Below, piece after piece: positions 8,989-14,358 of a stretch of 64,000 nucleotides of DNA. The stretch covers positions 7,736,135 through 7,800,134 of the forward strand of contig OZ005692.1 of NCBI GenBank assembly GCA_963930775.1. The letters are read 5' to 3'. The translations under genes were made by a program, and so were the position numbers. This DNA comes from Cliona cf. orientalis. Lineage: Eukaryota > Porifera > Demospongiae > Clionaida > Clionaidae. The notes beneath the pieces are model-generated. The model had not been told where the DNA came from. It did not search any database and was given only the letters and a program-made list of their open reading frames with translations. The stretch's first letter is position 1. Each line of letters opens with the position of its first letter.

Positions 8989-11900
8989 CTAATAATTGTT
9001 GTTATTAGCCATAATGCCATTTAGCTGTGATCCAATAGTGGCAAAGAACCGAGCAGCCAAGTCCATGAATGTTACACCATATTCCTCACAAGCTGTGGTC
9101 AAAGCCCCCATTGCTTCAACTAGCATGACGGTCTGCATTAACTGCTCTATGGATCGGGTATTCTGTGTTGCTTTAAAGCTAAGCTCCGTTACACGAGCCA
9201 TGTTGCCCCTATGATCATTATGCAAAATATCATTGTGTGAAGTGTACAGCACTAACAATGTATGTACGAATTATAGCTATCAAAATCGTACATATTTACC
9301 TTTGCATTTCATACGTTACCAGCACATTATAAGCAGGCATGCAACTACAATCCAGTGCAATGGCCTTCTCCATGTGTCTCCTGCCATCAGCAATGTCACC
9401 ACCACTCTTTGAAATTCTCACTTGTCTATCATGCATGTGACAGAATTTACGAACCATAATAATAATTAACAATACAAGGAGGGGACTAGCGAAGCACTCA
9501 CTGAGATTGCCTTAATATTATTGTTTTAGCTTCTAATGCTTGAATGATAGAGATACTTATGATGATGGTCATTGTTTTAATGTGGCATGATTAAATCTCG
9601 TGAGCTTTGGGCATGCAGAAGCATATAAATTTAGTAGCTACTACCATAGACTCGGTATAAGTCTACACTCACCCTAAGGTGAAATGACAGAGTGCATTTT
9701 CAGGCTGCAACTTTATAGCAGTTTGTAGTAGCTCTTCTGCTTTTTCAAGCTGATTAAGACACTGAAGAAACTGCATTACATTGTGTATAATTATTATCGT
9801 GGTATAATAATGATAAATCTCATATGTGCATGTTTCCACTTACCATTGCATAGAGAATAAGACCTTCAACAAAATCAGGAAATGTTTTAATAGCTTGTTC
9901 AAACTGAGATCCTGCTTTAGTAAATAATTGCATGGACTGTGCTAGACAAGCCTTTCGAAAATAGGCAGTTGCAAGGAGGTAGACAGCATGGCCAGATTTC
10001 GGTGCCAAATTAACGGCTTTCTCCAAGTCATCAATGCACAAAGCGAGGCCATTCAAGTCAGCTGCCGCATCTATAAGTATCTAGTATGTGCATGTATGGT
10101 GGGCATATTAAGACATCACATGTACAAAATTATCATTTTTGTGGAATAGAGAGGAGAAATAGCTAGAGTTCTATAGAGCACATACCCCGTGCGCTCTGTA
10201 GTATATTGCAACACTCTACTGCAGAGCTGTTTTATGACTTGACGACCCTTTCCAACACTGAGCTTGAGCATCAGCACGTGCCAATAGAGTGGGTGTGGTC
10301 AATAAGCCACAGGCAGGCTGAACAGAAATGATTTATAGCGCTAGTAAGCTCTTTTAAGCAATTCGAAGTGCATACAAACCATGTAGTTAATCACTGATAT
10401 CTACTGATTGGTTATACTTACGCCGACGACAATGACAACGACAGATAACCGTCACATACAAACTGATTGCTTTACCCCTTGCACATATAATATATCATGT
10501 GCACGGGGTAATAATATGATGATCTCAAGCCAATGCGACTATGACACAAAATAAGTCCTTACCCTTCCTCTCTGAATGAAGATGTCCACTGCATTTGAAT
10601 CTATAGCCAGTGCCTTTTGGAAACAAATGTCACACTTTTCCATCTTCTTTTGACCAGCAAATATCCTTGCTTGTCTCACCAAAGCACCCACACACATCTG
10701 CATTAATAGTGTGTGCTGCCGTGAATTCTTGACAAGGATGTCTCCTTATTGAACCTTTTTTTCAACTCCTTGTCTTGTGGCTAGATCTCGGAGGTCTTTC
10801 ACCGCTTTCTCATCTTCTCTCCACAAACTGTACAATACTCCTCGGAGAAGTAGAGCATGAGATACAAACACTGCATGGCCTAGAAAATATGCATACCATG
10901 AAATAGATTAGCTAGCTAGATATCAGAACCTGCTAACCCCTATCAATGGCATCAGTGAGTAGCCTAAAAATCCCACGGTAGTTGTTGGTATGAAACTTTG
11001 CTGCTGCCCGAACAAATGGCTCCTCACTGAATCCTTTTAGGAGATTTGATCTAGGTCTTGGTGTCCTCTGCTCCCAAAGCATCTTTAATCTTTCTTCAGA
11101 TATGTTATCTATAGAAATAAAATTATTATTCTTAGAGATTAGTTTCCGTAGTAAATACGTAAAATCTTGCTATATTATTATGCATGTATGGATATTTGTT
11201 TCTACTAGGCATGTGAGTCGGAAGGTGCATTATACTGACAGAGTGTATGTGAAAGTCTGTGAGACCTCCTCCCTCCCCCCCCCCCCAAAATACAATGTAT
11301 TATGATCATGAGAAACTACCGTACTTAATCTAATACTATATGTATGGAAAAAAATTAAAATGCACGCTTTTCTGGTAAAGGTCGTCAATCGCTCATATGC
11401 ACACGTTATGAGAATTCGTAAAATGCTAATTTCTTATGTTAGATTGAATCATACGTTGTATTCGATTAACTACAGTATTCAGGAAGGGTATCTAGGTAGT
11501 GATTAACTTTGTATGTACATAGCATAATTTGTTACTATAAAAAATGGTTTTTTATTACATTATTACCATTCCATTCAAAATATTCAAAGTAGTTCTTGAC
11601 CATGTGTGTAGTTGGAGCCAAAGGACCCAGTTTCTAGATTTATAAATAGAACATTGTGACGTATGCATTGGGGCATTAAGACAACTCTCTGACCATAAAT
11701 GCTTCCTCAGCTTTTTGCTTTCCAACCTCACTCAGTATTATTGGAAAAGTATCTCCAAAGGTACTGAACTGACTCTCATCAAGAACCTTTACTCGAAACA
11801 AGTCTATAATAATAATAGTGTATCATATCTGTTCAGCAATAACCTAGCTATAATTATATAGCTAGCCATACAGTAACATGCATATAGTAAGAACCTACAT

Positions 11901-12502
11901 ATACCTAATAAAGTTTCACTATTCTGATCGAGGGAATGATGTGCTTTCATCCTTCGACACAGAGCCTTAACATAGCGAGGGTTAAGTTTGATGGACTTAT
12001 CACATGCTTCAACAACAGAATGGAGATGATATCTCTGCATGTGTGTATGGATTAAGACCTAAATTAATGTACGAGTATCCAGGTAAAACGATCTACAAAT
12101 ATACCTTTTGAGTTTTGTCCCTTGTTTTCAAAGCCTTTAAAATAACACCAGGAGAATAATGGTCATTGATCACTCTCTCTCTCTCTCTCTCTCTATCTCT
12201 CTCTCTCTCTCTCTCTCTCTCTCTCTCTCTCTCTCTCCCTCTCTCTCTCTCTCTCTCTCTCTCTCTCTCTCTCTCTCTCTCTCTCTCTCACTGAGTCTCT
12301 TCCCTCATCTCCGAGCCCTTTAACTCACCATTTGGTCATACACAGCTCCCATATTATGATGGAAGATTGCAAGGTCTTCTTTCTTTTCTGTAGGGCATAC
12401 GTCTATTGCCTCTTGGTAACATTTGATAGCTTCCTCAAATTTGTGATCTTTAAAAAAGTCATTACCCTTCTGCTTTAACACCCGTGCTTGATCCAAAGCA
12501 TC
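8989..12502 (-). CDS. TOMM70: TOM70-type TPR protein, multi-exon
   Basis: Minus-strand exons, approximate: 12329-12502, 12105-12134, 11905-12034, 11694-11803, 10938-11108, 10563-10879, 9844-10070, 9673-9770, 9300-9432 and 8989-9209. Together they follow TOM70 almost end to end. The first TPR is KQKGNDFFKDHKFEEAIKCY then EAIDVCPTEKKEDLAIF. It is followed by IKLNPRYVKALCRRMKAH, later ALAIDSNAVDIFIQRG, QAIKTFPDFVEG, and a C-terminal block ending ACEEYGVTF (cf. VAKKYGL). TOM70 is an outer mitochondrial membrane receptor that takes precursor proteins and chaperones through its TPR groove. The membrane anchor expected before the first TPR is not seen; instead the upstream exon is a kinase (13303-14358). 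Problems: an in-frame TAA at 10746-10748 inside one exon (or a very short intron there), and phases that do not join at two junctions (11694/11108 and 10563/10070). It could be a working gene with base errors, or decaying. Confidence 0.75.
10175..10512. repeat. interspersed repeat, copy 1
   Basis: About 340 bp within an intron of the TPR gene, shared with 33593-33974. Common landmarks are GAGCACATACCCC, GACTTGACGACCCTTTCCAA, TTTTAAGCAATTCGAAG and GATTGCTTTACCCCTTGCAC. No terminal inverted repeats or coding capacity recognised; class unknown. Confidence 0.8.
12173..12289. repeat. (CT)n microsatellite
   Basis: About 115 bp of nearly pure CT dinucleotide with a few interruptions, inside an intron of the TPR gene. 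On the transcribed strand it is (AG)n. Confidence 0.95.
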
Positions 12503-12871
12503 CTATAATATATTATGGATATGAAATGTGGATAAAATAGCAAGACAGTGATTTATGCATTATCAATTTTGACCTCTCTTGTAGGTACACGCTATATACA
12601 ACTTAAGCTACAGAATTTGTGTACCCCATACAGCACTACATGCAGGGCAGTTTCCTGAGGTTACACATATAATACTGTAAGTACATTATCCTTGTAGGGA
12701 TGCCCTATTAGTAGCCTGAAACCATTGTTGTGTAACCATTAATTTTAGTAACACGATCATGACATGCATTGTCCTGTACTCAGTGCTGCACATTAACTAC
12801 ACCTGTACGGTAGCTATACACCTTGGCAGCATGTGGATAAACACTCTTATTGTTTGTTATGCTGCACCATA

Positions 12872-13053: not shown

Positions 13054-13302
13054 GTATCATTGCACATCAAATAGATAATATAATCATAAACTACAGGGTA
13101 AGAACTATAGTATACAAGTTATAGTGGGATGCATGATATGCATAGTTGAATGCACCCCAATATACTGTCTAGTTGGCCTCTCGTCATTGCAGGGCGAATC
13201 CTATGATCACTCAAACCACTCTAAGAGCTAGTGATTAGCTTATAAAAACTTTGGTCACTAGATAATGACCAACAATATGCAGTACTATCTTATGAGATTC
13301 AC

Positions 13303-14358
13303 CTTGCTGCTCACTTGTTTATCCTTCCCTTCCAATTGAACTTCCTTTCTCGATGAAATTTGGCTCCTGAGTTCTATAATAACTTGATCTTTTCTTTCTA
13401 CCTCTTCAGCCAAAGCTCTTTTCTCCCGCTCACTCTCTTCAATCTGCTGCTGCATCTCGAGTGGATTGGTGAATGAAATGGGAAATTGTAATACCATTTC
13501 TGCCAGCCGTTCCACCATTTTGCTTGCAGGGGGTCTTGTTTGGGGATGGTTATCTATACACTTCAGGATTAGATCCATCAGGGGATGATCACTTCCAATG
13601 ACTTCAAGAAATATTTCTCGTCGCTCAGCTTCAGATACAGGAATCATTCTACCGGGCTCAGTTCGAATTGGACCCGTCTGTGGCTCTGGCCACTTACCAC
13701 TGAATATATGAATCATCAAAATGCCATAAGAGAACTCATCGACACTTGTATCATACTTAGGATTGGCTATTATCACCTCTGGTGGCATGTAAGCAGGAGT
13801 TCCAGGAGTTTGTGTCATGCGACTGACTTGTAGAGGGGTCAGGTTGAGCATCCTAGCGACACCAAGATCAGAAATCTTGGCTTTCATGTTAGAGGAAAGA
13901 AGGATGTTATTGGAAGAAAGATCTCGGTGAATGATGGGAGGAATTTGGCTGTGGAGGTAGCACAAGCCCAGAGCTACGTCATGAAGAATAGAATAGCTGC
14001 TCTCTTTTGGAAGAATGCCATGTTGCTCAATGCAGGAGGTGAGGTTACTCTGAAGAAGCTCCATGATCAGCATGGGCACTTGTTTTCCTTGCTGAAAGTA
14101 GACTCCCAGGAATTGGACAATATTGGGGTGGCGTATTTGACTGAGTAGACGACATTCTTCTTCAAATCGACAAATGGTGTAACTGGTATCTCCCTGCTTT
14201 AGTAGGTATTTGTGAATCTTTTTCCCAGCACATTTCAGTCCCATGTAGTCCACTTCTAATACAGTGGCATACGATCCACGGCCCAACTCTCGATCTGTCA
14301 CTCTAATCTTAGTCAGCCTGTAGGGCTCAAATCCAGTGAAAGATGCTGATACTGCCAT
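13303..14358 (-). CDS. TKL-type protein kinase exon, probable 5' exon of the TPR gene
   Basis: 352 codons from ATG at 14358. Kinase domain from about residue 18: glycine loop GRGSYATV, ATP lysine in AGKKI, catalytic loop IHRDLSSNNIL, and SDLGVAR where DLG replaces DFG. The activation-segment end is AYMPPE, and the domain ends near LEMVERLAEM-type sequence at about 290. A charged coiled coil follows (about 305-350: EESEREKRALAEEVERKD). The core residues K, HRD and D are present, so it could be active. The open frame runs five codons further to a stop, but AAG|GTGAAT at 13302 is a good donor in phase 0. The next downstream acceptor, TATAG|GATGCT at 12502, is also phase 0 and opens the TOM70 TPR region. 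Either the kinase is fused to the TPR array, or the kinase ends at its own stop and TOM70 has lost its first exon. Confidence 0.8.

Follow-up and report, generated by a model that had tools for sequence, protein, structure and literature searches.

A likely fusion of a protein kinase exon with an anchorless TOM70 copy in the sponge Cliona cf. orientalis

In the demosponge Cliona cf. orientalis, a protein kinase exon lies directly upstream of a TOM70-like gene that lacks its membrane anchor exon, and the two are likely spliced into one fusion gene. Both are on the minus strand of a 64,000-nucleotide stretch of contig OZ005692.1 (G000:C4:7736135-7800134), here called the window; the genome searched comprises 216.8 Mb in 149 contigs. 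The case for a fusion draws on a kinase donor of the type used by its own gene family, the agreement of both splice phases, the absence of the usual kelch partner and of the TOM70 anchor, exons that changed less than introns, and a second, broken copy of the same arrangement. We infer the splice itself, the fused protein, its clients, and any mitochondrial location.

The kinase exon (13315..14358, minus strand) begins with an ATG at 14358 and runs for 348 codons to a phase-0 donor, CAA/GTGAGC (slashes mark splice boundaries). The complete open reading frame (14358..13285, minus strand) has 357 codons and a stop (13285-13287) and matches Pfam Pkinase with an E-value of 1.6e-41. The protein kinase domain spans residues 22-285 and is followed by a charged tail, coiled-coil-like by eye only. 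What we take to be the kinase motifs (the Lys in CAGKK, HRD, D-L-G, and PPE) all appear by eye to be present in the translation. The label of tyrosine kinase-like (TKL) kinase comes from the initial annotation of this DNA, and the Pfam match does not decide the group.

That annotation had ended the exon at another donor, AAG/GTGAAT. The site exists (between 13303 and 13302) and is in phase 0, but the family-type donor CAA/GTGAGC (between 13315 and 13314), 12 bases upstream and also in phase 0, fits better. Read-through past CAA/GTGAGC yields VSSKVNLIR and a stop (13285..13314, minus strand), and the alternative donor lies inside this segment. In the 20 kinase-family loci read for comparison (L029-L048) the exon ends in phase-0 donors such as CAG/GTGAGT, CAA/GTGAGT, and CAG/GTGAGC, with weaker or unclear donors at a few loci (e.g. 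L037, L041, L046). A broken sister copy of the window kinase exon at 8.07 Mb on the same contig (C4) has the identical CAA/GTGAGC. The exon therefore resembles its relatives at this end, and CAA/GTGAGC is probably its donor. Since AAG/GTGAAT is also in phase 0, the choice alters only the junction (KDKQ/DALDQ for CAA/GTGAGC) and not the interpretation.

The kinase belongs to a large family in this genome, in which a kinase exon with a coiled-coil-like tail is followed by kelch exons. Along 343-354 residues the window kinase shares 73-77% identity with the seven places that match next best, and no relative outside this genome was found when the protein was compared with collections of genome contigs and viral contigs. 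In the genome search with the kinase protein the best 114 of 1223 first-look candidates were scored, giving at least 115 matching places. A kelch place counted as a partner if it shared the strand of the kinase and lay no more than 12 kb downstream of it, with no other kinase match in between; these counts rest on the best 150 of 941 kelch candidates, which were the ones scored. Kelch partners were found at 87 of 115 kinase places and at 63 of the 66 best-scoring ones. The kinase exon is therefore predicted to be normally a first exon spliced to a downstream partner. By eye, a kelch exon was seen in the downstream frames of 18 of the 20 fetched loci, the exceptions being L035, whose nearest kelch place is just past the fetched stretch, and L048.

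The three kelch-less places among the best 66 are the window copy (rank 1), L048 on contig C8 (rank 41), and the broken sister (C4:8068270, rank 61). At 3 of the 28 kelch-less places overall a kelch lies farther on, with another kinase match intervening. Apart from the cases discussed here, 24 of the 28 rank 67 or lower, and there are clusters of them on C10, C8, C3, C2, and C4. For the window copy, no same-strand kelch within 12 kb was present among the scored candidates, and Pfam searches of 9 further minus-strand frames downstream of the kinase in the window detected none. One tblastn kelch query also found none in the window, though the same query missed the weak Pfam kelch of the gene upstream. 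The window copy thus shares with its family the kinase exon, its start, the coiled-coil-like tail, and the phase-0 donor. It differs in having a shortened tail and TOM70 exons instead of a kelch exon.

The next coding acceptor downstream of the window kinase is that of TOM70 exon 2, at 12502. As the initial annotation had stated, it is in phase 0 and opens a tetratricopeptide repeat (TPR) array of TOM70 type, borne out by matches to TOM70 in PDB. Twelve exons, all on the minus strand, were delimited: A (12329..12502, phase 0 at both ends, containing TPR1 and equivalent to exon 2 of the TOM70 gene on contig C1), B (12105..12134), C (11905..12034), D (11694..11803), E (11567..11633), F (10938..11108), G (10755..10879), H (10563..10697), I (9844..10080), J (9673..9770), K (9300..9425), and L (8989..9208, with the stop codon). 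The introns between 12502 and the stop at 8989 all have GT..AG borders, and joining the exons leaves an uninterrupted frame of 540 amino acids. An apparent phase clash between exons H and I was removed by starting exon I at 10080 (acceptor actag/ATACTT), as placed by comparison with the C1 gene. The intron after exon A holds a (CT)n run of 117 bp (12173-12289), and the C1 gene is by eye similarly purine-rich there.

In PDB the TPR array matches four TOM70 sequences best (E-values 1.7e-63 to 8.9e-63), followed by an engineered TPR protein (7.2e-23), and its alignment with full-length TOM70 covers residues 110-603. Among 9 families NCBIfam TIGR00990 scored best (E 5.9e-31), but its 107.8 bits are far under the curated cut-off of 757.25; the window gene is therefore a diverged TOM70. 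Aligned with the TOM70 chain, it has Lys and Asn in TPR1, Asn in TPR2, and Lys and Arg in TPR3 at the clamp positions. By our own count along the alignment, an arginine in exon C pairs with R192 of human TOM70. We take these TPR1-3 residues to form the dicarboxylate clamp that grips the C-terminal EEVD of Hsp70 and Hsp90.

When the genome was searched with the TOM70 protein, one gene was found on C1 (4416741..about 4409400). C4 holds four copies, here numbered 1 (the window copy), 2 (7.587 Mb), 3 (7.819 Mb), and 4 (8.068 Mb). In the C1 gene a clear hydrophobic anchor is encoded by the first exon, which ends in phase 0, and exon 2 begins at the same point as window position 12502. This shared start indicates that the window copy lacks exon 1 exactly at intron 1 and has the kinase exon in its place. 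The highest 19-residue hydropathy is 1.28 in the TPR array and 1.04 in the kinase exon, against 2.23 in the C1 anchor exon, so the membrane anchor that the initial annotation called missing from TOM70 is absent from both parts. Its wider proposal, that a kinase replaces the anchor of an import receptor, gains support from this within-genome comparison as regards a kinase exon joined to an anchorless TOM70 copy, but the donor is probably a different one and the TOM70 involved is an extra copy. A TOM70 first exon with an anchor, which that annotation had named as counting against a fusion, does exist, but on C1 and not at the window locus. In exon A the first in-frame ATG does not occur before codon 51. 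The conserved TPR1 therefore requires a coding exon upstream.

Copy 4, about 320 kb away, repeats the arrangement. It has the same order of kelch-kinase gene, kinase, and TOM70 exon A, matching window positions 17500-12065 in pieces that are 78-96% identical, but it is broken by frameshifts and stops. We estimate that phase and strand would agree by chance alone in about 1 of 6 cases. The break exactly at TOM70 intron 1, the missing kelch, and the same order in the second, broken copy indicate more than chance.

Several observations, given here with the alternatives on which they bear, weigh against the fusion. The kinase may be a gene of its own that ends at its stop at 13285-13287, while the TOM70 copy uses some other first exon; we regard this as unlikely. 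The stop lies in frame only 27 bases past the donor and recurs in the broken sister copy, which would allow a short kinase made without splicing. Copy 2 is open over all 12 exons, and neither a kinase nor an anchor exon was found for it, so a TOM70-like frame can be intact in this genome without the kinase; searches for a kinase covered 13 kb upstream of copy 2 and 6 kb upstream of copy 3 and found none in either. The first exon of copy 2 was sought upstream and not found, and that region holds a large tandem repeat array and, by eye, transposon-like frames. The tandem repeat arrays there have periods of 18, 36, and 72 (L049 4632-7993), where the first exon would be expected. The dependence of the kelch count on the best 150 of 941 candidates is a further point of this kind.

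The interval between the two genes also bears on whether they are separate. The proposed intron from the kinase exon to TOM70 exon 2 (12503..13314, minus strand) is 812 bp long and contains a young repeat element of about 182 bp (~12872-13053). At least 20 other places in the genome match nearly the whole length of this element at 94-100%, and it is absent from the broken copy 4. It supplies two AATAAA motifs (13013 and 12924) that could serve a kinase gene ending here. These motifs are confined to the young repeat, however, and the interval outside it contains no AATAAA or ATTAAA. In the 782 bp between the kinase stop and 12502 there are 13 readings from an ATG to a phase-0 donor (GTA or GTG), none of them anchor-like, and an anchor exon was found only on C1. 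Among the 66 best kinase matches, the kelch partners of 63 also argue against separate genes, as the exon would normally be spliced on.

Alternatively, intron 1 of the TOM70 copy could be long and enclose the kinase genes, with the true anchored exon 1 upstream and beyond 17.5 kb. This is very unlikely. Upstream of the exon 2 acceptor, C4 copies 1, 2, and 3 resemble one another over only 25-60 bases, as a remote first exon would predict, and the search may have missed an anchor exon that lies farther upstream and has strongly diverged. However, when the C1 anchor exon was compared with the genome, it matched C1 itself (E 1.5e-45) and then only two weak places, one on C12 (E 0.245) and one elsewhere on C1 (E 0.729).

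Less probable still is the reading of the TOM70 copy as a pseudogene in decay, whose position next to the kinase would be meaningless. C4 copies 3 and 4 are indeed broken. The window copy, in contrast, is open, with 12 exons and GT..AG introns. Between copies 1 and 2 the exons show 29 changes in 1620 bases and one in-frame three-base gap, and the introns 145 changes in 1790 bases with 142 gap columns. The raw contrast (1.8% in exons, 8.1% in introns) was rejected as inflated by badly aligned intron stretches; the filtered intron value is 4.25% (68/1600). After filtering, the 29 exon changes would fit neutral evolution in one TOM70 copy of the pair (p 0.20). Copy 3 was also used to polarise the changes by lineage, for a stretch reaching from exon A into exon G and with badly aligned intron stretches excluded. 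In the window lineage the exons have fewer changes (8/752) than the introns (21/628; Fisher p 0.004), which speaks against decay. In the lineage of copy 2 the contrast is non-significant (10/752 vs 11/628, p 0.66). Over the same exons, synonymous and nonsynonymous changes number only 4 and 4 in the window copy and 5 and 5 in copy 2, counts too small to carry a conclusion.

Exon A and the kinase were also compared separately. In exon A, dN is 0.021 and dS 0.227 between the window copy and copy 2. The window copy differs there from the other three C4 copies at 4 codons; 3 of the differences are silent and 1 gives the residue found in C1. For the kinase, the window copy and copy 4 differ with dN 0.031 and dS 0.073, and divergence in the flanks is 0.13 (30/228) and 0.17 (96/573). 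Polarised kinase changes do not favour the fusion: silent and replacing changes number 3 and 4 in the window copy and 5 and 9 in copy 4, with 19 of the 40 differing codons unpolarised.

Under the fusion, an exon of the kinase-kelch family, with its own start and phase-0 donor, would sit in the former intron 1 of a TOM70 copy and replace its exon 1. Splicing from CAA/GTGAGC to the exon 2 acceptor would give a protein of 888 residues with a kinase, a short charged coiled-coil-like tail, and the whole TPR array. It would have no outer-membrane anchor. Most likely the TPR array would recruit substrates for the kinase, a role taken over from the kelch propeller. The usual clients of TOM70 are mitochondrial precursors. 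Because the clamp residues are kept in TPR1-3, likely targets would be chaperones, the mitochondrial precursors that these carry, or TOM complexes.

The neighbour upstream of the kinase (15004..17336, minus strand) contains kelch-like pieces (Kelch_4, E 2e-06, above the cut-off) and a second kinase domain (Pkinase, E 2.2e-31). Compared with the copy at C4:8.07 Mb it is broken by an in-frame stop near 16804 and a frameshift near 15810-15870. Elsewhere in the window, three single-exon frames on the plus strand (22223-23167, 34307-35446, and 52377-53351; 314-379 residues) are related by eye. Two minus-strand frames (24045-24533 and 54113-54766), alike by eye, lie near two of these three and would form with them a repeated gene pair. 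Long Asn/Ser-rich repeat frames on the minus strand (43005-46100, 46126-47307, and 5107-5922) are also alike by eye. The largest has hydrophobic stretches, and a weak match to Beta_helix, slightly below the cut-off, was obtained for 5110-5922. Rfam at gathering scores gave no match in the window.

A further kinase of the family lacks a kelch. At L048 (G000:C8:1361504 onward), a kinase (positions 1-1389 of the locus) ends in a phase-0 donor, GAG/GTATGC, and is followed by MOB exons at about 1680-2592 and by no kelch. The partner is Mob1/phocein (PF03637, E 2.8e-43). Upstream of L048, on the same strand, is another MOB gene with about 50% identity; its first exon was not recognised in the 1-kb piece searched. 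The locus resembles the window in its kinase family, phase-0 donor, absent kelch, and foreign exons downstream. It differs in that the partner is Mob1/phocein and not TOM70, and its join is equally putative. It is possibly a second partner replacement, which suggests that the exchange of kinase partners was perhaps no single event.

Tentatively, the kinase exon may be a promiscuous first exon that, with its own start and phase-0 donor, enters first introns of other genes or gene copies, with kelch as the common partner, TOM70 here, and MOB on C8. Kinases would in this way be directed at clients of chaperones and mitochondrial import, and at Hippo-type scaffolds. With TOM70 (TOMM70) the window gene shares the TPR region and the exon 2 boundary seen in the C1 gene, and it differs in having the kinase exon in place of the N-terminal anchor exon. 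Chimeric genes arise by exon capture, jingwei-type genes being an example; in them, too, a phase-matched intron joins a new first exon to an older gene. The proposed event is thus of a known kind, gene chimerism via exon capture, and what would be new is the pairing of a kinase with TOM70. We know of no other protein with these two domains, and none was mentioned in the titles and opening parts of abstracts among the papers listed by literature searches.

If the two parts are joined, a kinase substitutes for the anchor of an import receptor, and phosphorylation would be tied directly to mitochondrial precursors bound by chaperones. More weight falls on the family setting: the genome has more than 100 kinase places, mostly with kelch partners, and two unrelated candidate replacements, TOM70 and MOB. 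Exon capture at phase-0 first introns would thereby become testable inside one genome.

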